Assembly: GCA_030019075.1 (NCBI GenBank) | Contig: JASEHD010000008.1 | Coordinates: 1-45,700, forward strand | Source of the DNA: Bacteroidota bacterium | Lineage (GTDB): Bacteria > Bacteroidota > Ignavibacteria > UBA10030 > SZUA-254 | Direction of reading: 5' to 3' | Length of the DNA: 45,700 bases | Shown here: one piece after another, positions 21 to 41,070 of the stretch | Numbering within the stretch: position 1 is the stretch's first letter | Layout: each line of letters opens with the position of its first letter | The notes under the pieces: generated by a model | The model's database searches: none | What the model saw: only the letters and a program-made list of their open reading frames with translations | What the model was told of the DNA's origin: nothing | Made by a program: the position numbers and the translations under genes

Positions 21-2003
21 ATGGGCCTCCACTTAAGACCAGGACATAAAATCGAGGAAGGTAAAAAAGGCTGGGTACCAACTGGTTACGAAGATTTCTT
101 AACAGACATCAAAGTTGGTGCAATTGACTTAGGGTATTGGGGAGAGAAGGTGGACAAATCCATTAGTTCACCTGACGGACATTCACCAATATATAGCATC
201 CCTAATCCTTGGGCAGCTGCTTATCTGTTCAACTTTGTGCTTAGCGATAATAGCCACCCACTAGCGGAACCGCTCATCGTGCAATTACTCAATTTGCTTT
301 CTGACTATACCCTATACGGCTCTGCTGAATTGCGAGAATTAAATAGACCGAGCGAAGGCGACCCTTTTTACAAGCTTTGGGCAATGGCTCCAGATTTCAT
401 AAGGTACGGCGACAGCATCTACTTCTTTAGTAACACCGCAACCGGAGAAATCTTAGGAGGTTTGTCAAAAACCAGTTTAGCGTGGACTTCCCAGCAATAT
501 GTTGCAAAAGAAGAGAAAAACAACCTGCTTGCTAACGAAGCATTGACTTCATTCCTACACCAAGCCCATCAAGCAAAGAAACCGGATTTCACCGAAGACG
601 CGTTCAATACGTTTTGGCAACATGCCTCCCTTGTGCAGATCTTAAAAACAGTCCCTCCATCAATAGAATTCCAAGCTCAACCTGCGTCCCCCGAAAGCTG
701 GCTTAAGAGACTCCCACCAATGGACAGGAAGAGTGAATTCTATGATGATTTGTCCAGATCGTTCGTATTCGACGAAGACAGCCTAACCAGAGATCGTCAA
801 ATCTTTCTCAATCAGGCTAATCCGCCTGGATTCATTGATGAGATAAAGAGAAAGAAGAGCGATGTAGAACTACCGATGAATTCAGGTGCATATAGATGGG
901 TAATACTGGATTCACTCTTAGAACCCTGTTGGATCAATCAGAACAAAGTTGAGAGCTCTCTGTCTGAAGGAATTCATTCTATGGAGAAAGGTTTTCTTTA
1001 TCCTTTCAAACCGGGATACCTACAGCAATTTCATCTAAAGCTGAAAGATTTAAAGATCCTTGGCAAGATGAACATAGGCAATCAAAATGCCCGAGCTGAC
1101 ATCCAGTGGAATGAAAAACGTAAGGTAAGCCTGAATACACAGTTCGTCGGCGACACAAGAAGTTTGGCGATATGGCCTCCATTCCAATCAAACTTTGTTG
1201 ACAACTACGTCGTGGAGTATGATGTTGTCGGGATCGAGAAGCTGGAAAAACTGGAATTCTTTGATGAATCAGGCAGCCAAATCACTTGCAGTGGTCCCGC
1301 ACACCACATAGGACAGAACTTTAGGATTTACAAGTTGTCAAAAATGTTTCCTCGGTACATCCGCGTCCTGGGCAAATACAAGGGTAATTTATTCGGTGGT
1401 TTTCTTGAGTTCTATGAAAGAAGGCCGACTAACAAACAAGGTAATATCACTATAGGCTTTGATTTCGGAACGAGCCACACTTCCATTGCGTACAGTAAGG
1501 ATGGCACGCGTTCAATCATGAACTTCCAGAAGGCAAAGCCTATTCTCGTAGCCGATCAACAATCTCTCGTTGGCATGTTATACAACTTTCTTCCGCCCGG
1601 CTTGACGGATGCTAAGCCTACTAGGAAAGAAGATTGGGAAAAGCGAATACCTTGGCAGCCATTTCAGACTCAATGGATGGATGTTTCGAATGGCCAGATC
1701 AATCTAGATGCGTTGAAGTTTATCGAAGACGGAACGATTCCGTTTCTTCACTACGCAGAAGAAACCCGCCTTAACCCAATCATTGAAAATTTGAAATGGG
1801 GGGCCCCAGCTAACATCAGCATTTATCGCACGCTTTTTCTCAAACAATTGCTAATGATGGCTGTTGCAGAAGCAGAAGCAATCGGATTTGAGAACTTAAA
1901 GATTCGCTGGTCCTTTCCGAAAGCATTCTCACCAACGCAGTACCAGAATCTAAAAAGCTTTTGGACAAGCATTTTAAGTGACTTACGTTTGACGCAACAA
2001 TAA
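21..2003 (+). CDS. N-terminal part of an Hsp70/actin-fold ATPase with a ~470-aa N-terminal extension of unknown function
   Basis: 660-aa ORF preceded by AAGGAG SD (~10-15). Contains a phosphate-1-like motif 'ITIGFDFGTSHTSIAYSKDG' near aa 470-490; ends before phosphate-2. Confidence 0.8.
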   Translation: MGLHLRPGHKIEEGKKGWVPTGYEDFLTDIKVGAIDLGYWGEKVDKSISSPDGHSPIYSIPNPWAAAYLFNFVLSDNSHPLAEPLIVQLLNLLSDYTLYGSAELRELNRPSEGDPFYKLWAMAPDFIRYGDSIYFFSNTATGEILGGLSKTSLAWTSQQYVAKEEKNNLLANEALTSFLHQAHQAKKPDFTEDAFNTFWQHASLVQILKTVPPSIEFQAQPASPESWLKRLPPMDRKSEFYDDLSRSFVFDEDSLTRDRQIFLNQANPPGFIDEIKRKKSDVELPMNSGAYRWVILDSLLEPCWINQNKVESSLSEGIHSMEKGFLYPFKPGYLQQFHLKLKDLKILGKMNIGNQNARADIQWNEKRKVSLNTQFVGDTRSLAIWPPFQSNFVDNYVVEYDVVGIEKLEKLEFFDESGSQITCSGPAHHIGQNFRIYKLSKMFPRYIRVLGKYKGNLFGGFLEFYERRPTNKQGNITIGFDFGTSHTSIAYSKDGTRSIMNFQKAKPILVADQQSLVGMLYNFLPPGLTDAKPTRKEDWEKRIPWQPFQTQWMDVSNGQINLDALKFIEDGTIPFLHYAEETRLNPIIENLKWGAPANISIYRTLFLKQLLMMAVAEAEAIGFENLKIRWSFPKAFSPTQYQNLKSFWTSILSDLRLTQQ

Positions 2004-2017
2004 AGGAGAATTGAATC

Positions 2018-3016
2018 ATGGTGATAGAAAAAATTGGTGATGGAATCACAGAAGCACAAGCTTCGGCTGTTTACTTCTTAGAAGACACAAATTTTAATAC
2101 CATGGGACATGCCGTAGTTGTGGATATCGGAGGTGGTACATCAGATATCTCGCGCTGGTACGACAGAAATATCCAGTGGGAAGATAGTGTGAAGTTTGCT
2201 GGGAGTGATCTAGTTGCAGTTCTTGATGATCTCCTACATTTCATCGGTATCGCCAACCCCGAACCTTATGCATATGACATTGCAATGAGAAGATGGCCAC
2301 AGATTCATAAGAACTGGAATGGCAAGATGGAGAATTTTCAGTCCAGGCCTGAGAGTATGAATACTCTTCAAACCATTGGTTTGTTTTATGCAGGCATCTC
2401 TTACTATGTGGGGATGCATTTGAAAAGAGAAAATCTTGTTGAACCTTTAAGGCACCTTGCCTTTGCAGGAAACGGAATACGCTTCTTGGAGATAATCACG
2501 TTCGGTGACAATCTGTCGGAACATACTCCGGCCCTTGTCGACTGGATCGGTCTTTTCCGAGAAATGCTAAAAGCTGGACATAATATTTCTGGAAATTACG
2601 ATACCTTGTTTACGTTCTCGCCTAACCCAAAACTCGAAGTTGTCTATGGATTGGTCTCGAACAAACTTGGAGACTACGCTGCAGGGAAAGATACAACAAG
2701 AAAAATGTTTGGACTTGATGTTACCTGGGAAGGTAATCAGTACCAGTCTCACGAATGGAATCCAGAAGTAAAGGCAACAGATTTCAAAGAGTCCGACATA
2801 GATTTCAAGGGCTTCGTTGAATTCATTAAGAAATACAAGACGATAGCACCCGCATATTTTAAAAATTGGCAATTGAATTCTCTTCCTGAAGAATTCAATA
2901 GGGATATGAGAACTAGCCTCTTTAGCGCTCTTGAAAAAAGAGGAAATGAAGAACTGGCGAGCCCCTTGTTCCTCGAAGCACTAAAAGCATATATGAAGTG
3001 TCAATACAAACGGTGA
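2018..3016 (+). CDS. C-terminal part of the Hsp70/actin-fold ATPase (phosphate-2 and adenosine-motif half)
   Basis: 332-aa ORF; 'TEAQASAVYFLED', phosphate-2-like 'AVVVDIGGGTSDISRW', adenosine-like 'LAFAGNGIRFLEII'. SD AAAGGAG at 2002-2008, 9 nt before the ATG, overlapping the upstream TAA. Confidence 0.8.
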   Translation: MVIEKIGDGITEAQASAVYFLEDTNFNTMGHAVVVDIGGGTSDISRWYDRNIQWEDSVKFAGSDLVAVLDDLLHFIGIANPEPYAYDIAMRRWPQIHKNWNGKMENFQSRPESMNTLQTIGLFYAGISYYVGMHLKRENLVEPLRHLAFAGNGIRFLEIITFGDNLSEHTPALVDWIGLFREMLKAGHNISGNYDTLFTFSPNPKLEVVYGLVSNKLGDYAAGKDTTRKMFGLDVTWEGNQYQSHEWNPEVKATDFKESDIDFKGFVEFIKKYKTIAPAYFKNWQLNSLPEEFNRDMRTSLFSALEKRGNEELASPLFLEALKAYMKCQYKR

Positions 3017-3021
3017 AGTCT

Positions 3022-3975
3022 ATGTCAAAATTCCGGAAAATATTGCTCTGCTGTCTTTGTTTGTGGCTTATCACAGATTGTTTGCAGGCAAATCAAGTCG
3101 GAGAAAGGAAATCGAAGTCCCAAAAACAAGGCGCAACGCGCGAGGACAAAAAGATTGCTATCCCTGATGAGAATCAACCCACATCGTCAGAAACTAGTAT
3201 CAAAGACAATTTTCAATCGCTTCATTACTCTCTTCAACAACAGGACAAAAACATTGAGAGAATGTCGGATCAAATAAGATCCTCTCAGGATGATCTTCGA
3301 ATTCTATATTACGTCTCAATTGGCTTGACCACCCTAATAATTCTTCTACTCAGCTTTCTCATCTTTATCTTGATAAGAGGGAAATTCCATAAGTTGTCTG
3401 GCGAATTGACATACCTGAAGAATATTCTTGGCTGTGATAAGAAGTTCAACTTCGAAGCATCGCGATTCCTTCCTCAACTTCGTGAGACTTTAAGGAACCT
3501 TGACTCGGATATCAAGCGAATCAAGGAAGCAGTTTACAGTATCAACGACAAAATTGCGGAATCGGCACGGCCGGGCCACCGAGAGAACTTTCCAAGTAGA
3601 TTAGTTACTCTATCTAATGAGCTCTCCCTTTCCCGGTCAAACACTTTCGAAGAACTAAAACCACAAGAGGAATCTCAAATCGTACACGTCAAGTATATCG
3701 GTGAATTTGCATCAAGACAAACCTTTTCACGAGATACGATTCCAGAATACTTTTATATCGCAAAACAAGGTGGCAATTGGCGATTGTACGTTGAGGAAAA
3801 TATCCTAGCCAAGCGCCCTAGCCAGGAATACGAAGTTCTTCTAACTAAATTCTTCGAGATCACCAAGGTCCCCGATCCGCAACGCTATGAGTTATCAGAA
3901 AGTGCACTCATCGACTGGGACGAAAGCGAAGGCAAGGGATACTTCAAAGCAAAGGGGAAAATAAGACAGGTATAG
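3022..3975 (+). CDS. Membrane-anchored coiled-coil protein (signal peptide + central TM), unknown function
   Basis: ORF 2998-3975; the ATG at 3022 gives an N-terminal hydrophobic signal (MSKFRKILLCCLCLWLITDC), then a TM segment 'ILYYVSIGLTTLIILLLSFLIFILI'. Start is 5 nt after the ORF2 stop. Confidence 0.65.
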   Translation: MSKFRKILLCCLCLWLITDCLQANQVGERKSKSQKQGATREDKKIAIPDENQPTSSETSIKDNFQSLHYSLQQQDKNIERMSDQIRSSQDDLRILYYVSIGLTTLIILLLSFLIFILIRGKFHKLSGELTYLKNILGCDKKFNFEASRFLPQLRETLRNLDSDIKRIKEAVYSINDKIAESARPGHRENFPSRLVTLSNELSLSRSNTFEELKPQEESQIVHVKYIGEFASRQTFSRDTIPEYFYIAKQGGNWRLYVEENILAKRPSQEYEVLLTKFFEITKVPDPQRYELSESALIDWDESEGKGYFKAKGKIRQV

Positions 3976-3976
3976 T

Positions 3977-5365
3977 ATGCCTATAGACCAACAAATCCTA
4001 ACCGAGCCGGGCGTGCATCTTGCTATTGTCGCACTAATAATTGAGGTTACGATCGCAACGTCAATCTCGAGACAGTATGACAAGGCTCGTAATTCTCTTC
4101 TTTCTTCTCAACACTTCCAATCCCTATTACAGAAAGCCATTAATGATGCTAGCGGAACAGTCCATGATAATGTGATGGTCACCGAACTGATCGATCTAAT
4201 GGGGACCCAGCGGTCAACAGAGAGCATCAGAATCGTTTTGAGAAAAAATTTCATTTCACCTAATGAAAGAATCAGGCACCTCGCTAACATGGGTCCAGCG
4301 GTTGGACTTTTCTTTACATTCACAGGGATGTTTCTAACAGTGCTTAAAATATCCACAATCCCGTTTGGAACAAACGTGGACATTCTAAGCCAGAACTTCT
4401 CCAATCTCTTCCCTGTATTTATTGGAGGGGCGGTTGGAATCGCAGTTTATGCATATGGCATGGTGCTCTTCAATAGAATACAGACAGCACAATACGCTGT
4501 TGAGAATGACTTACTAAAGGCTTTTCTGGTTTTTGAATCGACACATGAGCCACCCGAACCAAGAACAGTCGAAGATGCATATAAGAGGTTACTTAAGCCC
4601 CTGAAACTGCTTTTGAATCGGCTAGAGTTGATAAACACTGAATTCGAGAAATTGTCAAATCAAACTGATAGCCTTATAACCAAGTTTTCCGAAAAGACTA
4701 ACAACTTCATAGAGAAGATTGATAACAAGACATCCGAACTCACGTCTAAATTCAAATCTAACTTTGATGCCTTGGAGACTGGTTCAAAAAGCATCGCGGG
4801 CTTGAATTCTATTTTCACAGAGTCTGCCAAACAATGGAAAGAGTCTTCTGCTGCCTTATCCAGCCTCTCGCAAACTCTGTTACAAACTGAGGATCGGCTT
4901 CAAAAACTAGCAACGATTTCAGAAACCGTTTCAGATCTGGTAAAGAGTTTAGACTCCAACACAAATAATATTAACAAACTTGTCAATTGGGTTGAACAGG
5001 ATCGGCTAGAGTTTAGCAGCCTAAAAGACGAAATGAAAAAATTCGGTGACACAGTTCCGGCTTTCACAAACACAGTTGAGCAATTCAGGTTAGGCTTGAA
5101 CCCCCTCAAAGAGATTTTTGACTCCAAATTGTCCGAAATCAAAAACAAGCTGGAAGAGATATTAAACTCACCGAGCCCACCTATCGACTTTCAGAAGGAT
5201 GTCACAAAATATCTTAAGGAGATCAACATCTCGCTGGACAAGATTTCCAAAGACGGACAGGCCCGAAAGGTACCAACCCTCGGGAATCCGGTAGCTAATC
5301 CGAATAGACTCACGATTCGAAGAACCTTCCTACAAAAGGTAAAGGCTCTCTTTTCCCGAACTTAG
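3977..5365 (+). CDS. MotA/TolQ/ExbB-fold proton-channel-like protein with long coiled-coil tail (ZorA-like)
   Basis: 462 aa; TM1 'GVHLAIVALIIEVTIA', TM2 'NMGPAVGLFFTFTGMFLTVLKI', TM3 'LFPVFIGGAVGIAVYAYGMVLF'; then ~250 aa of charged helical/coiled-coil sequence. 1 nt after the upstream stop. Confidence 0.75.
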   Translation: MPIDQQILTEPGVHLAIVALIIEVTIATSISRQYDKARNSLLSSQHFQSLLQKAINDASGTVHDNVMVTELIDLMGTQRSTESIRIVLRKNFISPNERIRHLANMGPAVGLFFTFTGMFLTVLKISTIPFGTNVDILSQNFSNLFPVFIGGAVGIAVYAYGMVLFNRIQTAQYAVENDLLKAFLVFESTHEPPEPRTVEDAYKRLLKPLKLLLNRLELINTEFEKLSNQTDSLITKFSEKTNNFIEKIDNKTSELTSKFKSNFDALETGSKSIAGLNSIFTESAKQWKESSAALSSLSQTLLQTEDRLQKLATISETVSDLVKSLDSNTNNINKLVNWVEQDRLEFSSLKDEMKKFGDTVPAFTNTVEQFRLGLNPLKEIFDSKLSEIKNKLEEILNSPSPPIDFQKDVTKYLKEINISLDKISKDGQARKVPTLGNPVANPNRLTIRRTFLQKVKALFSRT

Positions 5366-5373
5366 TTAAGCTC

Positions 5374-5991
5374 ATGAATGGAGAGAATCAGACATCTGGT
5401 TTTTGGTTTGCCTATATCGAAACTCTCACGGGCTTAGCGGTAATATTTCTAATTCTCTTCGTTGCTGCTGCAAATCGAGAAAGGGCAATCAACGAACAAC
5501 AAGAGGGCTTAGTAAAAAGCTGGCAAACGGCGAAAGAGAAACTATTTGATCTTCAGGCTGCACCTGTTCCAGATCCAAAAATGGGAGGTATGCGAATTAC
5601 GCTCGCTGATAGTCTTATTTTCGCCCTGAAGTCTTCCAAACTTAGCGGTGAGGGTGAGAATAAGATCATCGAAATTTCTAGAGTCTTAGTCGGATTCTAC
5701 AAGAGCAATCCATCCTTCAAAACTGCGATGAGAATTAAGGTTGGCGGTCATACAGATCCCATCGGAGGAGATACCATCAATTTTCCGTTGTCATATCAAC
5801 GAGCCTACAACGTAATGAGCCTGATAAACAGTCAATTCACCTCAGAACGGTTGGATGTTGAAACCATACCAATTGCATACGGCTCGAAGTATCCTTTGCC
5901 AGGTCACGACTCCGAAATCGAACCAAAAAATAGAAGAATCACAATTGTAGTGGAGTTCCTATCAACGGAATTATTGATCGGTTTAAAATAA
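5374..5991 (+). CDS. MotB/ZorB-like stator: N-terminal TM plus OmpA-family peptidoglycan-binding domain
   Basis: TM 'GFWFAYIETLTGLAVIFLILFVAAANRER' and OmpA-like 'IKVGGHTDPIGGDTINFPLSYQRAYNVM...PIAYGSKYPLPGHDSEIEPKNRRITI'. Confidence 0.85.
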   Translation: MNGENQTSGFWFAYIETLTGLAVIFLILFVAAANRERAINEQQEGLVKSWQTAKEKLFDLQAAPVPDPKMGGMRITLADSLIFALKSSKLSGEGENKIIEISRVLVGFYKSNPSFKTAMRIKVGGHTDPIGGDTINFPLSYQRAYNVMSLINSQFTSERLDVETIPIAYGSKYPLPGHDSEIEPKNRRITIVVEFLSTELLIGLK

Positions 5992-14447: not shown

Positions 14448-16172
14448 ATGAAAACATTTACAATAAAGATTGACCCTTTAACCGGAGAAGAATATTTTGA
14501 AGTTTATCTTCGCGGAAGGCAAATATTAAACGACCCACTTTTAAACAAGGCATCTGCATTCACTTTAGAAGAAAGAATGAATCTTGGCTTAGTCGGACTT
14601 TTACGATACGGTATTTAGGATATTGAAAATCAAGTGAACAGAAGTTTGGCTATGTATAGAAGAAAAACTGACGAACTCGAGCGATATATATTTCTTCAAG
14701 GATTGCTTGACCGGAATGAAATCCTTTTTTATCGTCTTCTGTGCGAACACATCATCGAAATGCTGCCCATCGTTTATACTCCTACAGTAGGACAAGCTTG
14801 TTTAAGGTTAAGCCACATAACGAAAAGATACCGTGGAATTTATATAAGTCCCTACAACGTCGCGAATATCGATAACATTTTTCAAAATAATGTGTCACTC
14901 CCGGATGTAAACTTGATAGTAGTAACCGACGGCGAAAGAATTCTTGGTTTAGGCGATTTGGGATCAGACGGCATGGGTATTCCAGTTGGTAAAATCAACC
15001 TCTACGTTGCCGCCGGCGGATTACATCCGGCTTGCTGTCTGCCAATTTGCCTTGACGTAGGAACGAACAACGAGCGGCTATTAAACGACCCGCTTTATCT
15101 CGGTTATCGCAATAAGAGATTAGGTGGACCTGAGTATTTCGATTTCATCGAGCGATTTATAATAGGTGTTAAACGAAATTTCCCGAATGCACTTTTACAG
15201 TGTGAAGATTTCGCAAAACATAAAGCATTTAAGTTACTCGAAAGATATCGAGACAGAATACTTTCTTTCAACGACGATATTCAGGGAACCGGTGCCGTGT
15301 CTTTAGCAGCTTTGACAACGGCGATGAAAATTAAAAAACAGCGCTTTAGCGACCAACGCTTTGTTGTTGTAGGCATGGGACAAGCCGGCTCGGGAATATG
15401 CGACAACATACTTGCAATGCTAAAAGAAGAATGGCTGACTGATAAAGAAGCGAGTAGTAAAATTTTTCCTTTCGACGTACCCGGATTATTGATGGAAGAT
15501 ACTCCAAACCTGGAAGCCTCGCAAAAACCTTTTGCAAAAAAACACTCGGCTGTTGCAAAATGGAAATTAGATTAACCAAACACTATAACGTTGATGGATG
15601 TTATAAGAAACACAAAAGCCACAGTACTGATAGGTGTAACGGCTACAAAAGGACTCTTCAACGAAGAGATTTTAAAGCAGATGGCAAATAATGATGAGCG
15701 TCCTGTAATATTTGCTTTATCGAATCCAACCTCAAAAACCGAATGCACTCCAGAAGAAGTTGCTATAGCAACGAATGGCAGAGGTATGGTTGCAACCGTA
15801 AGTCCTTTCCCGGAATTCGAGTATAATGGAAAAACATTTATCACATCTCAATGTAATAACATGTTTGTATTCCCCGGTGTTGGTTTAGGCGCGCTTGTAA
15901 GTAAATCTTCGAAGGTTACAAATAACATGTTCCTGAAAGCCAGTAAGGCTTTGAGTACTCTGGTAACCGAAGAGGAACGTAAACAGGGTATGTTGTTACC
16001 CAACCTGAACGATATAAGAAATGTTTCCTTACACGTTGCAAAAGCAGTCGCGATAGAGGCGCGTGAGGCAGGATTAGGAAGACTGTTAAACGATGACGAG
16101 CTTGAGCGGATCATTAAAAAGGCACAGTGGGAACCCCATTACTATCCATTCAGGCCAGGCAAAGCCGGGTAA
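14448..16172 (+). pseudogene. NAD-dependent long-form malic enzyme, interrupted by two in-frame stops (TAG at 14616, TAA at 15573)
   Basis: Same frame throughout: 'RGRQILNDPLLNKASAFTLEERMNLGLVGLLRYGI*DIENQVNRSLAMYRRKTDELERYIFLQGLLDRNEILFYRLL...EMLPIVYTPTVGQAC...VPGLLMEDTPNLEASQKPFAKKHSAVAKWKLD*PNTITLMDVIRNTKATVLIGVTATKGLFNEEIL'. Confidence 0.9.
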
Positions 16173-30772: not shown

Positions 30773-31750
30773 CTATCTCCTTGAAAATCTATTGCTTTTC
30801 TTTCTTTCAATAACTCTATGTACAGCTTTGACGATTGCGTCCTTATTTATTCCATATTTCTTCATAAGCTCTTCACCAAGTCCCGATTCACCGAATGTAT
30901 CATTTACAGCAACAAACTCTTGCGGTGTTGGACAATGTTGAACAAGAACTTCAGCGACTGCACTTCCGAGTCCACCATGCTTTTGATGGTCTTCTGCAGT
31001 AACAATTGCACCGGTTTCCTCCGCTGCCTTATTGATTGTTTCTACATCAATTGGTTTAATAGTGTGCATGTTGATCACGCGAACGCTGATACCATCTTTT
31101 GCGAGAATTTCTTCAGCAAGGATCACTTCCCAAACTTGCAAGCCGCAGGCAATTATGGTAACATCACTTCCATCGATCAGTGTATCGGCTTTCCCGAATT
31201 GAAACGGTGAATCCGGACTTGTAAATACAGTTGAATTATCTCTGAAAAAACGCAGGTAAAGAGGATTCTTTAAATGCATTGATGCTTTGACCATCTTCTT
31301 CGCTTGATGATAATCGCATGGTGAAGCAACTGTCATATGCGGCAGCACCCGCATCAGAGCAATATCTTCGAGTGATTGATGTGTTGCCCCATCTTGTCCG
31401 ACAGTGATACCGCAATGCGATGCACAAATCTTTACAGGTAATTCGCTGTATGCGATTGATTGTCTGATTTGATCAAACGGGCGACCAGTTGCAAATTCAC
31501 CATAAGTTGAAGCGAACGGAATTTTTCCGGCAATCGCTAACCCTGCAGCAGTGCCCATCATATCCTGTTCGGCAATCCCAACACTGAAGAAGCGGTTAGG
31601 AAATGCTTTCATAAATAAATCTGTTCGCACTGATCCCGTAACATCACCACCGAGCACGACAACATTTGGGTTCTCATGTCCAAGTTCAACGAGGGCTTCA
31701 CCGAAACCGAGACGAGTTGCTTTGTGTTCTTTGGGTTGAAACTTAAGCAT
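30773..31750 (-). CDS. Transketolase C-terminal subunit
   Basis: 'GLAIAGKIPFASTYGEFATGRPFDQIRQSIAYS', 'QDGATHQSLEDIALMRVLPHMTVASPCD'. Confidence 0.92.
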   Translation of the reverse strand: MLKFQPKEHKATRLGFGEALVELGHENPNVVVLGGDVTGSVRTDLFMKAFPNRFFSVGIAEQDMMGTAAGLAIAGKIPFASTYGEFATGRPFDQIRQSIAYSELPVKICASHCGITVGQDGATHQSLEDIALMRVLPHMTVASPCDYHQAKKMVKASMHLKNPLYLRFFRDNSTVFTSPDSPFQFGKADTLIDGSDVTIIACGLQVWEVILAEEILAKDGISVRVINMHTIKPIDVETINKAAEETGAIVTAEDHQKHGGLGSAVAEVLVQHCPTPQEFVAVNDTFGESGLGEELMKKYGINKDAIVKAVHRVIERKKSNRFSRR

Positions 31751-31969
31751 TTATGATGCTACTCTTTCTTGCACTAACGTTACACTTAGCAAATCATTAA
31801 GCTCTAAGTATTTCGATGTATTAAGGATTTCGATACCTACAACTTTATTTTCTTTGTCTAAATCAAACACAATATCGTCGCTATATCGCTCGTTTCTTAC
31901 TTCTTTACTCTCCTTCAATGTGATATGAAGGAGATCATCTTTGGGATTATAATATATTTTCATAACCAT
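31751..31969 (-). CDS. DUF2283-like small protein
   Basis: 'MKIYYNPKDDLLHITLKESKEVRNERYSDDIVFDLDKENKVVGIEIL' matches DUF2283 style (D.L.I......E......D.I...D....VVGIEIL). Confidence 0.85.
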   Translation of the reverse strand: MVMKIYYNPKDDLLHITLKESKEVRNERYSDDIVFDLDKENKVVGIEILNTSKYLELNDLLSVTLVQERVAS

Positions 31970-32219
31970 TCTCCATAATAAACATAAACAGTAACAGTGA
32001 TTATTTGATCGCTTTCCTGGGTGAATATTACTTCAACTTTCTTCTCTTTGTAATACTTACCACACCAGTAGTTATTGAATGGAAATATTTTTGTTTTTTC
32101 TTTCGTCCATATTTCGCATCAATTTCATCTTTGGTTTCTAAAACTTCCTTAATCTCACTTTCATTTGTTCCACGCCTTATCATCTGCTCAGCCGTATGAG
32201 GATCAATTTTAACAGTCAT
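31960..32219 (-). pseudogene. DUF4258-like small protein with a frameshift near an A6 run
   Basis: Frame A 'MTVKIDPHTAEQMIRRGTNESEIKEVLETKDEIDAKYGRKKK'; then another frame gives 'TKIFPFNNYWCGKYYKEKKVEVIFTQESDQIITVTVYVYYGEWL*', whose TGA overlaps the DUF2283 start. Confidence 0.8.
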
Positions 32220-32230
32220 TATGAGTATAT

Positions 32231-33124
32231 TCACTTAACGCTGACAAGATTTATCTCTTTCTCCCACTCAAACTCAATAAAATCGCCATACTTTGTTGGA
32301 GGAATTTCAGCCAATGCTTGTTTCCCCTGTTCATCGTTTGGTGGAACACCATGCCATTTATAATCATCCTGCATAAATGAAACACCATTACCCATAAATG
32401 TACGGGCAACGATCACTTTTGGTTTTCCCTTTAAATCTTTTGCTTGTTTAATTGTTGAGATAAAATCATCAATATTGTTTCCGTTGCATTCGAGTACATG
32501 CCAGTTGAATGCTTTCCATTTATCTACGAGTGGCTCAAGCCCCATCACGTTACTCGTTCTTCCATCAATCTGACAATCGTTTCTATCAACTATAGCAATT
32601 AGGTTATCAACTTTGTGATGACCCGCAGTCATAGCAGCTTCCCATATTTGCCCTTCATTTAATTCACCATCCCCTAGGAAGACATAAACATGATTCGCTT
32701 TATTATCTAATCGCAAGCCAAGCGAACAACCGACAGCAATTGATAAACCCTGTCCTAAAGCTCCAGAAGCTACCTCAACTCCGGGAACACCATGAGTGTG
32801 TACCGGTGCTGGATGACCTTGCAGCCGTCCGTTTATTTTTCTTAAAGTTGTTAATTCGTTCAATGGAAAATAACCTCGCCGAGCAAGAGCGGCATACCAG
32901 ACGGGACAATAATGACCTGCTGAGAGAAAGAAATAATCTCTTCCATCCCATTTAGGATTTTTTGGATCAATATTTAAAATATGAAAGTAGAGTGATGAAA
33001 AAATATCTGCCGATCCGAGAGGTCCACCTGAATGTCCTGATTTGGATATCATCAACATCTTTATTACATCGCGGCGAAGCTGCTGGGATATTTCTTTTAG
33101 TTCATTTGTGTCAAGTATTTTCAT
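32231..33124 (-). CDS. Transketolase N-terminal subunit
   Basis: 'SGHSGGPLGSADIFSSLYFHILN', 'ASGALGQGLSIAVGCSLGLRL', 'FLGDGELNEGQIWEAAMTAGH'. Confidence 0.93.
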   Translation of the reverse strand: MKILDTNELKEISQQLRRDVIKMLMISKSGHSGGPLGSADIFSSLYFHILNIDPKNPKWDGRDYFFLSAGHYCPVWYAALARRGYFPLNELTTLRKINGRLQGHPAPVHTHGVPGVEVASGALGQGLSIAVGCSLGLRLDNKANHVYVFLGDGELNEGQIWEAAMTAGHHKVDNLIAIVDRNDCQIDGRTSNVMGLEPLVDKWKAFNWHVLECNGNNIDDFISTIKQAKDLKGKPKVIVARTFMGNGVSFMQDDYKWHGVPPNDEQGKQALAEIPPTKYGDFIEFEWEKEINLVSVK

Positions 33125-39187: not shown

Positions 39188-39760
39188 TCAAAATTCGATC
39201 TGAATTCCATCTTTAATTTTTTTGTAATAGATTATTCGTATCTGTATTGATTCGGATAATGATTTCTTCGAAAGATATGAAACAGGTTTAATTGATACTG
39301 GTTCATTCCCAAGATAGCCATCGATGCCTTGAGATTCTTCTTGAATGTTCCCCATTCTATAAGATTTGCCCTCCTGTTCAGCGACTACCTTTAAGATCGC
39401 TTCTTGAAATCGAAGACCAATGAATGTTTTAATTATTACCAAATCCTTAACCCATTTCTCTATCATTTTATCATCGATTTTGTTTATTGCGTCTTTTAGA
39501 TTCTTGAACATTTTAATAATTCGTTCTTTGGCGTTTTGAATAGCTTCCGGATAATTTTTTAAATACCAATCTTCCCATTCAAAGAATTTATTACCTTTAA
39601 ACTTATGAATTAGATCTGAAAGTTTACCAACAACTTTGGGCCTCGTTCCCTGTGAGTTTTGATTAGCAAGATTAATAAGTTGGGTTGTATATTTGGGGAA
39701 TTCTGGGGATTCTATATCCAATATTTTTTTTATCTCTTCATTTGATAACTTAATATTCAT
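39188..39760 (-). CDS. MjaI-family type II restriction endonuclease (probable)
   Basis: 'EFPKYTTQLINLANQNSQGTRPKVVGKLSDLI', 'GLRFQEAILKVVAEQEGKSYRMGNIQEESQGIDGYLGNEPVSIKPVSY' (nuclease-core-like D...SIKP); directly downstream of the methylase. Confidence 0.72.
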   Translation of the reverse strand: MNIKLSNEEIKKILDIESPEFPKYTTQLINLANQNSQGTRPKVVGKLSDLIHKFKGNKFFEWEDWYLKNYPEAIQNAKERIIKMFKNLKDAINKIDDKMIEKWVKDLVIIKTFIGLRFQEAILKVVAEQEGKSYRMGNIQEESQGIDGYLGNEPVSIKPVSYLSKKSLSESIQIRIIYYKKIKDGIQIEF

Positions 39761-39765
39761 TCACG

Positions 39766-41070
39766 TTATCTTTCTGAATATTTGTGAATAATGTACTGCG
39801 CAAATTTTTCTTTTAGTCTATAATTTATTGAATTGTCAATTTCTGCGTATCCATATTTTAAGATATGTGCATTAATAAATGTTTTATTTTTCAAATAAAG
39901 ATATGCTAATAATCTATTCTCAGCGTCGTATTTTGTTGAATCGTATTTTAAATAAACTTGCTTCCCCTTTATCATCTTCGTTAGAAACTGAATCGCGTCA
40001 TCCCTTTTTTCATCGATAGTTTTAATTCCGATCAAATGTATTAGCAATCCATTGTTGAGTTCAACTATCTCTGGTGAAATAATACGCTTGACGGTAAAGA
40101 ATTGTTCACGTTTGTTTTGATTACCATCCACTTTTGATCCGAAATTAAGTTTCTTGGGATCAACCTTTTTATCAAATCGGACTTTGTCCCTAAAAATATA
40201 AGGCAACTGTTCTATCTGTTTGGTGAAATCGGTAGTACCTTGATTCTTAATAATAATATCAAAACTTGTGTCTTGAGCAAAAAGACCTTGCGAATTAATT
40301 CCGAGTTTATTTTGAATAACAGGGAGAAATTCCGAGCTTATTTCATACCCAATTGAATTTCGCACAAGATTCTTTGCTGCGAGCGTAGTAGTGGCGCTAC
40401 CAAGAAATGGATCGAGTACCGTATCTCCAACAAACGTGAACATACGGATCAGACGCTTTGGTAATTCTTCCGGGAACATCGCGAGGTGTTTATCTTGTTT
40501 CTCTCCGGCAAAATTCCAGTGCCCAGCAAAATATTCGTTCCATTCGGTCGTGGTTAATTTTGAAAGCTGTTTTGCTTCTTTTGTAGGATATTGTGCATCT
40601 CCTAGTTTTTTGAAAAGCAGAATGAATTCATAATCTATTTTAATGATACCATTCCGGGGATATGGGAAGGAACCCATAACAGTTGCTCCACCAGTAGTAT
40701 TTGTGGTTGTTACTTTTTGCCAAATGATCGCCCCCATATAATCGAATCCAATTGTCTCACAGAACTTGATAATTTCTGTTCGTATCGGAATCACCTTATA
40801 TCTCCCATAATAAACAGAGCGGGCAAACTGGTCACCGATATTTACACACAGTCGGCAGCCAGGATTTAAAACGCGATAGCATTCATTCCATACCAGATTC
40901 AAGTTATTAATGTATTCTTCATAAGAATCATTGAAACCGATTTGGTCCTTATGACCATAATCTTTCAATTGCCAGTATGGTGGTGAGGTAACAACCAAAT
41001 GGATGCTTTCGTCTGCTATTTCCTCCATTCGGCGTGAATCGCCGATTATTATTTTATGTGATGTTTTCAT
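39766..41070 (-). CDS. Beta-class DNA methyltransferase (TSPPYW, probable N4-cytosine) with C-terminal SNase/thermonuclease-like domain
   Basis: 'VVTSPPYWQLKDYG' then 'FVGDTVLDPFLGSATTTLAAKNLVRNSIGYEIS'; C-terminal ~120 aa 'FTVKRIISPEIVELNNGLLIHLIGIKTIDEKRDDAIQFLTKMIKGKQVYLKYDSTKYDAENRLLAYLYLKNKTFINAHILKYGYAEID'. Confidence 0.85.
   Translation of the reverse strand: MKTSHKIIIGDSRRMEEIADESIHLVVTSPPYWQLKDYGHKDQIGFNDSYEEYINNLNLVWNECYRVLNPGCRLCVNIGDQFARSVYYGRYKVIPIRTEIIKFCETIGFDYMGAIIWQKVTTTNTTGGATVMGSFPYPRNGIIKIDYEFILLFKKLGDAQYPTKEAKQLSKLTTTEWNEYFAGHWNFAGEKQDKHLAMFPEELPKRLIRMFTFVGDTVLDPFLGSATTTLAAKNLVRNSIGYEISSEFLPVIQNKLGINSQGLFAQDTSFDIIIKNQGTTDFTKQIEQLPYIFRDKVRFDKKVDPKKLNFGSKVDGNQNKREQFFTVKRIISPEIVELNNGLLIHLIGIKTIDEKRDDAIQFLTKMIKGKQVYLKYDSTKYDAENRLLAYLYLKNKTFINAHILKYGYAEIDNSINYRLKEKFAQYIIHKYSER

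Follow-up and report, generated by a model that had tools for sequence, protein, structure and literature searches.

A candidate two-chain actin/Hsp70-superfamily ATPase encoded upstream of a ZorAB-like gene pair in a Bacteroidota contig

The stretch of DNA analysed here (the window) covers 45,700 nucleotides of a contig from a Bacteroidota bacterium, whose metagenome-assembled genome consists of 226 contigs. At its beginning lies an operon of five genes (Table 1). The first two, ORF1 and ORF2, whose translations contain ITIGFDFGTSHTSIAY and VVVDIGGGTSDISRW, respectively, match successive segments of one protein family. All ORFs of the operon are intact, the genes that flank the ORF1-ORF2 junction are closely spaced and the next gene past the operon encodes a TonB-dependent receptor. 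Absent from an earlier note on this sequence were the 20 bp that separate the contig start from ORF1, the ca 470 residues of ORF1 that precede the ATPase fold and the extension of the operon to position 5991.

Table 1 Features of the operon at the start of the window
Feature	Position	Strand	Description
ORF1, 660 aa	21-2003	+	Family-specific N-terminal region (about residues 1-470), then predicted lobe I with phosphate-1 (GFDFGTSHTS)
Phosphate-1 motif region FDFGTSHT, within ORF1	1460-1483	+	
Junction	2001-2017	+	ORF1 TAA fused to SD (TAAAGGAG, 2001-2008); ORF2-frame TGA 2012-2014; then ATG 2018
ORF2, 332 aa	2018-3016	+	Predicted hinge (connect-1-like) helix, lobe II, phosphate-2 (DIGGGTSD), adenosine-type motif (AGNGIRFL)
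317-aa protein	3022-3975	+	Signal/TM segment, coiled coil, short C-terminal domain
462-aa MotA/ZorA-like membrane protein	3977-5365	+	Long coiled coil on the cytoplasmic side; weak sequence match; assignment from position, topology and a GLxxTFxGM motif
205-aa ZorB/MotB-like protein	5374-5991	+	N-terminal TM helix, OmpA domain; PADLOC ZorB1 E 1.7e-16, Pfam OmpA E 4e-5

ORF1 and ORF2 score below the cut-off of every Pfam and NCBIfam model. The Hsp70/actin fold proposed in the earlier note is nevertheless supported by a profile of the family, which matches MreB (E 5.7e-7) and also FtsA. The model of a Gemmatimonadetes homologue (L026; mean pLDDT of 60 across the whole model, with higher values in the ATPase region) points the same way, with matches to the solved structures of MreB (E 4.6e-6) and DnaK (E 7e-6). 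From the profile and the homologue model, we assign the protein encoded by ORF1 and ORF2 to the actin/Hsp70-superfamily ATPases, with a large family-specific N-terminal region. The ASKHA motif order (phosphate-1, phosphate-2, adenosine) is kept across the two ORFs, phosphate-1 being on the first chain and the other two motifs on the second. A whole nucleotide-binding fold in one polypeptide, a usual though not strictly defining ASKHA trait, is not seen in ORF1 or ORF2. The ATPase core motifs and the predicted fold are common to MreB, FtsA, DnaK and ParM, but the window proteins differ from these by the large N-terminal domain, by the split chain and by having no close sequence similarity to them. 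A canonical Hsp70/DnaK chaperone, for which an HSP70 Pfam match and a C-terminal substrate-binding domain would be expected, was not accepted, neither ORF having a Pfam or NCBIfam family at cut-off. Modelled alone, ORF2 gives a compact domain (pTM 0.84) with weak matches to ParM, PilM, MreB and actin (best E 1.6e-3).

The sequence and the ORF list agree with the arrangement described in the earlier note, in which ORF1, with DFGTSHTS, ends at a TAA and ORF2, with DIGGGTSD, opens in another frame. At base level, the ORF1 stop (2001-2003) is indeed part of a strong SD sequence, TAAAGGAG, located 9 nt before the ATG of ORF2. Around the junction, stops are found at 2001, 2022 and 2025 in the ORF1 frame, at 1979 (1979-1981) and 2012 in the ORF2 frame and at 1951, 1975, 1990 and 2038 in the third frame. 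Because the ORF2 frame is closed at both 1979-1981 and 2012-2014, a single-base change or indel cannot fuse ORF1 with ORF2, as the note had also argued. Thus, the two-ORF form is not a sequencing slip or fresh nonsense mutation of the commonest kind. Among 33 genes of the window, an SD match of 6 nt or longer at a usable distance accompanies 4 of 634 internal ATGs (0.6%) and 4 of the 33 real gene starts (12%). ORF2 has such an SD (6 nt, spacing of 9 nt), which would favour a genuine start about twenty-fold, a ratio that ignores that the junction was chosen as striking. Frameshifting or stop readthrough could also give one protein from ORF1 and ORF2, with few or no residues missing at the junction. 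However, each frame hits its own stop before reaching the other, and the junction RNA shows no notable or stable structure (z-score +0.75). Such recoding was rejected on these grounds and appears extremely improbable; the SD-ATG accounts for expression more simply.

The family is an uncurated group of actin/Hsp70-superfamily ATPases of ca 1,100 residues, encoded next to a tubulin-like gene. It is found in cyanobacteria, in the phylum to which the window belongs and in one Gemmatimonadetes MAG. ORF2 first matched a 1,118-aa hypothetical protein from a Gloeothece plasmid, at 30% over 203 aa (E 4e-10); the portion of this protein that precedes the matched segment aligns with ORF1. A profile built from this protein and four further plasmid relatives, found after it, identified 54 loci in genome_contigs, nearly all of them cyanobacterial plus the Gemmatimonadetes MAG; a few genomes from the same class and phylum as the window contain members too. 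Intact members of ca 1,100 aa, such as that of the Gloeothece verrucosa plasmid (WP_013325770.1, annotated 'hypothetical protein'), share with the window the two-part layout of N-terminal domain, phosphate-1, phosphate-2, adenosine motif and C-terminal tail. ORF2 as sole query retrieved no close relative from genome_contigs, and none of ORF1 or ORF2 was found in viral contigs and phages or elsewhere in the window's order (98 genomes). Weak matches of ca 412 aa within this order look like FtsA. Identity of the window protein to its relatives is about 20-24% (best about 24%) and its branch in the tree is long (2.79). For want of a near relative, neither the age of the split nor selection on it can be assessed.

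The earlier note had suggested looking for the split in relatives, and none shares it. The phosphate-1 and phosphate-2 regions are on a single chain in all 79 homologous ORFs that span both (some being repeats of one locus), and no two-cistron form was found among them. On the sequences compared, the split ATPase gene is unique to the window among the homologues examined, with one chain in every relative and two in the window. Apparent exceptions correspond to contig or locus ends, to one in-frame stop and to broken copies. One candidate for a second split (G324) was rejected as a single gene severed by two contig ends. Another, in a Trichodesmium erythraeum MAG (L076, 1952-5227), was rejected because it has a single in-frame stop, a TAG that lies in the same loop and takes the place of the conserved Trp; another Trichodesmium MAG carries an intact copy (L077). 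Two cyanobacterial copies (L046 and L049) are truncated or frame-broken elsewhere in the gene. A recent break in the window's lineage would be consistent with the intact state of every homologue spanning the region and with these losses, by nonsense in the same loop (L076) or by damage elsewhere. The downstream half would then be open for want of decay time, the SD would be fortuitous and the system would have lost its function or be losing it. Such a break requires more than one single-base change as well as a restart at an SD of the kind found at just 0.6% of internal ATGs, and it has to accommodate ORF1, ORF2 and three following genes that carry no further lesions. We consider it a serious but rather unlikely explanation.

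The loop that contains the cut is variable and tolerates differences in length. It connects the final helix of lobe I, where a W is conserved, to the hinge helix of lobe II, where an E is conserved. The spacing from W to E is 18-31 aa in intact homologues and 23 aa when counted from the two window chains. In the L026 model, the cut is flanked by helix 715-736 and by the hinge helix 751-762; ORF1 would therefore end with lobe I and ORF2 would open with the hinge helix and lobe II. Out of 46 family-conserved columns, 38 are kept in the window (21/27 in ORF1, 17/19 in ORF2), a fraction of 0.83 that falls within the 0.78-0.98 of other members, divergent ones included. In the alignment, the expected residues are present across the two chains together, with few or none missing at the junction. 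The earlier note had named two signs that, together, would speak against a genuine two-chain gene: homologues that are all intact, and other decay mutations in this copy. The first was found, in 79 ORFs; the second was not, since the ORFs are intact, the conserved columns are largely kept and no decay is seen inside the operon.

Outside the operon, 12 kb away, a malic enzyme gene (PF00390 and PF03949; 14634-16172) carries an in-frame TAA at 15573-15575, and its second part has no SD. This interruption looks like a plain nonsense lesion or a sequence error. It differs from the Hsp70-like junction on three points: the frame is the same on both sides, there is one stop and there is no SD. Simple lesions or errors therefore occur on this contig, which adds weight to a recent break. 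The malic enzyme interruption could also be the second of two errors, the junction being an assembly or sequencing artefact in a truly continuous gene near the end of a metagenome-assembled contig. The fragmentation of the genome into 226 contigs and the contig start 20 bp upstream of ORF1 are compatible with such an artefact. However, about 30 other genes of the window are continuous and closely packed, the junction is not explicable by a single-base error and an error is not expected to yield an SD-ATG. An artefact is improbable in our view.

Downstream of ORF2, assignment of the 205-aa protein as ZorB-like is firm from its profile matches. In the 462-aa protein, matches to the ZorA profile are confined to the coiled coil. 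The 317-aa protein corresponds in position and general layout to the product of the gene that follows the Hsp70-like gene in relatives, with sequence similarity only in the last ca 40 residues. The order of the three genes is the one found downstream of the intact family members L024, L025 and L026 (coiled-coil TM protein, MotA/ZorA-like, OmpA/ZorB-like); sequence support for orthology with these counterparts is weak for the ZorA-like and 317-aa genes. Directly upstream of the Hsp70-like gene, a tubulin-like gene is present in 52 of 60 testable relative loci (Gloeothece protein against Pfam Tubulin_2, E 2.2e-10; L024 protein against Tubulin, E 4.6e-5). Farther upstream, relatives encode a small TM protein, and most loci add a lipoprotein resembling a vWA protein, with a DxSxS-type motif read by eye and without a Pfam match. 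The window contig ends before the place where a tubulin-like gene would be expected, and no such gene was found elsewhere in the assembly.

A conserved operon is visible in L024-L026 and in most cyanobacterial loci (L027-L079). It encodes a vWA-type lipoprotein, a small TM protein, a tubulin-like protein, the actin/Hsp70-like protein of ca 1,100 aa and one or more coiled-coil TM proteins; in L024-L026 it also includes the MotA/ZorA-like and OmpA/ZorB-like pair. This operon pairs a tubulin-like with an actin-like protein, and the ZorAB-like pair follows in some lineages. In L015 (G342:C131, 238-3498), the phosphate-2 of a second Hsp70-like copy is degenerate (NIGKSSCD) and its N-terminal region differs; this copy is probably catalytically dead. 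In four other loci (L032 14430-16628, L038 13511-15703, L056 13090-16074 and L072 13602-15827), the full-length ORF is followed after a few genes by a second family-matching ORF, in which the searched motif patterns are absent.

The operons of relatives resemble published tubulin-vWA-OmpA and tubulin-HSP70 systems. The accessible part of one report describes FtsZl1-vWA-OmpA operons, for which membrane remodelling was proposed (Makarova and Koonin 2010, PMC2875224). Like these, relatives of the window locus combine vWA-type, tubulin/FtsZ-like and OmpA-domain proteins, and the window operon has an OmpA-domain protein. The FtsZl1 system has a GTPase, but an Hsp70/actin-like or MotA-like component is not named in that part of the report. 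GTPase-centric conflict systems, as outlined in the accessible part of Kaur et al. (2020, PMC7159879), include one neighbourhood class with tubulin-like, HSP70-like and vWA components, as in the window's relatives; the forms with tubulin and HSP70 are reported mainly from actinobacteria and firmicutes. These systems are defined there by a DO-GTPase and GAP1. Neither the TRAFAC DO-GTPase nor GAP1 is among the five proteins of the window operon, whose upstream part is outside the assembly, and membership was not accepted. The accessible parts of PMC2875224 and PMC7159879 make no mention of a ZorAB-like pair beside either system, or of a split ATPase. The window shares with the ZorAB motor of Zorya a ZorB-like OmpA protein preceded by a putative MotA/ZorA-like protein with a long coiled coil, but here the pair is partnered by an actin-like protein, and by a tubulin-like one in relatives. 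No match to the effectors ZorC/D, ZorE or ZorF/G was found in the window operon, so that Zorya membership was not accepted either. We would class the locus as one variant within the broad tubulin-vWA-OmpA/tubulin-HSP70 kind.

In the actin/Hsp70 fold, two lobes close on one nucleotide. No natural protein is known to us in which each lobe forms a chain of its own, with one of the phosphate loops, and a literature search for split Hsp70/actin ATPases found no paper. Sequence alone cannot fully decide between a rare natural two-chain ATPase and a freshly broken gene, the two readings set out in the earlier note, but it leans to the former, with translational coupling; the break is retained as the lesser candidate. 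Coupling is favoured by the 6-nt SD at 9 nt, much rarer at internal ATGs than at real starts, by a cut that sits in a length-tolerant loop with conserved columns kept in both halves, and by the predicted compactness of ORF2 alone with its weak actin-superfamily matches. It is weakened by the absence of the split from relatives and by the choice of the junction for its striking look. The malic enzyme stop, which means that the contig holds at least one simple lesion, and the junction RNA without notable structure weaken it as well. On balance, we slightly favour gene fission with translational coupling as the origin of a two-chain ATPase.

According to this preferred scheme, an ancestral one-chain ATPase would have been split by gene fission. 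ORF1 would be translated up to its TAA, and ORF2 would be started at its ATG either by the terminating ribosome or by a new one recruited by the stop-overlapping SD. An N-terminal chain (family domain and lobe I) and a C-terminal chain (hinge helix and lobe II) would thereby be made adjacently and in similar amounts. We infer that the two chains associate to form one ATP-binding cleft and that the heterodimer, if active as an ATPase, would take over the role that the intact protein has in a membrane-linked tubulin-like/vWA/ZorAB-like system. The broader proposal of a natural split ATPase, with halves coupled in translation that must assemble the ATP site, at work in a tubulin-like/actin-like/ZorAB-like envelope machine, has in our estimate an even chance of being right. 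If true, it would offer a natural split ATPase for studying the link between lobe closure and function.

Two other arrangements were observed in the window. At 39188-41070, genes for an MjaI-type restriction endonuclease and an N6/N4 methylase lie side by side and form an ordinary restriction-modification pair. At 30773-33124, the C- and N-terminal halves of transketolase are encoded by separate genes, ca 480 bp apart; two-gene transketolases are known in bacteria.
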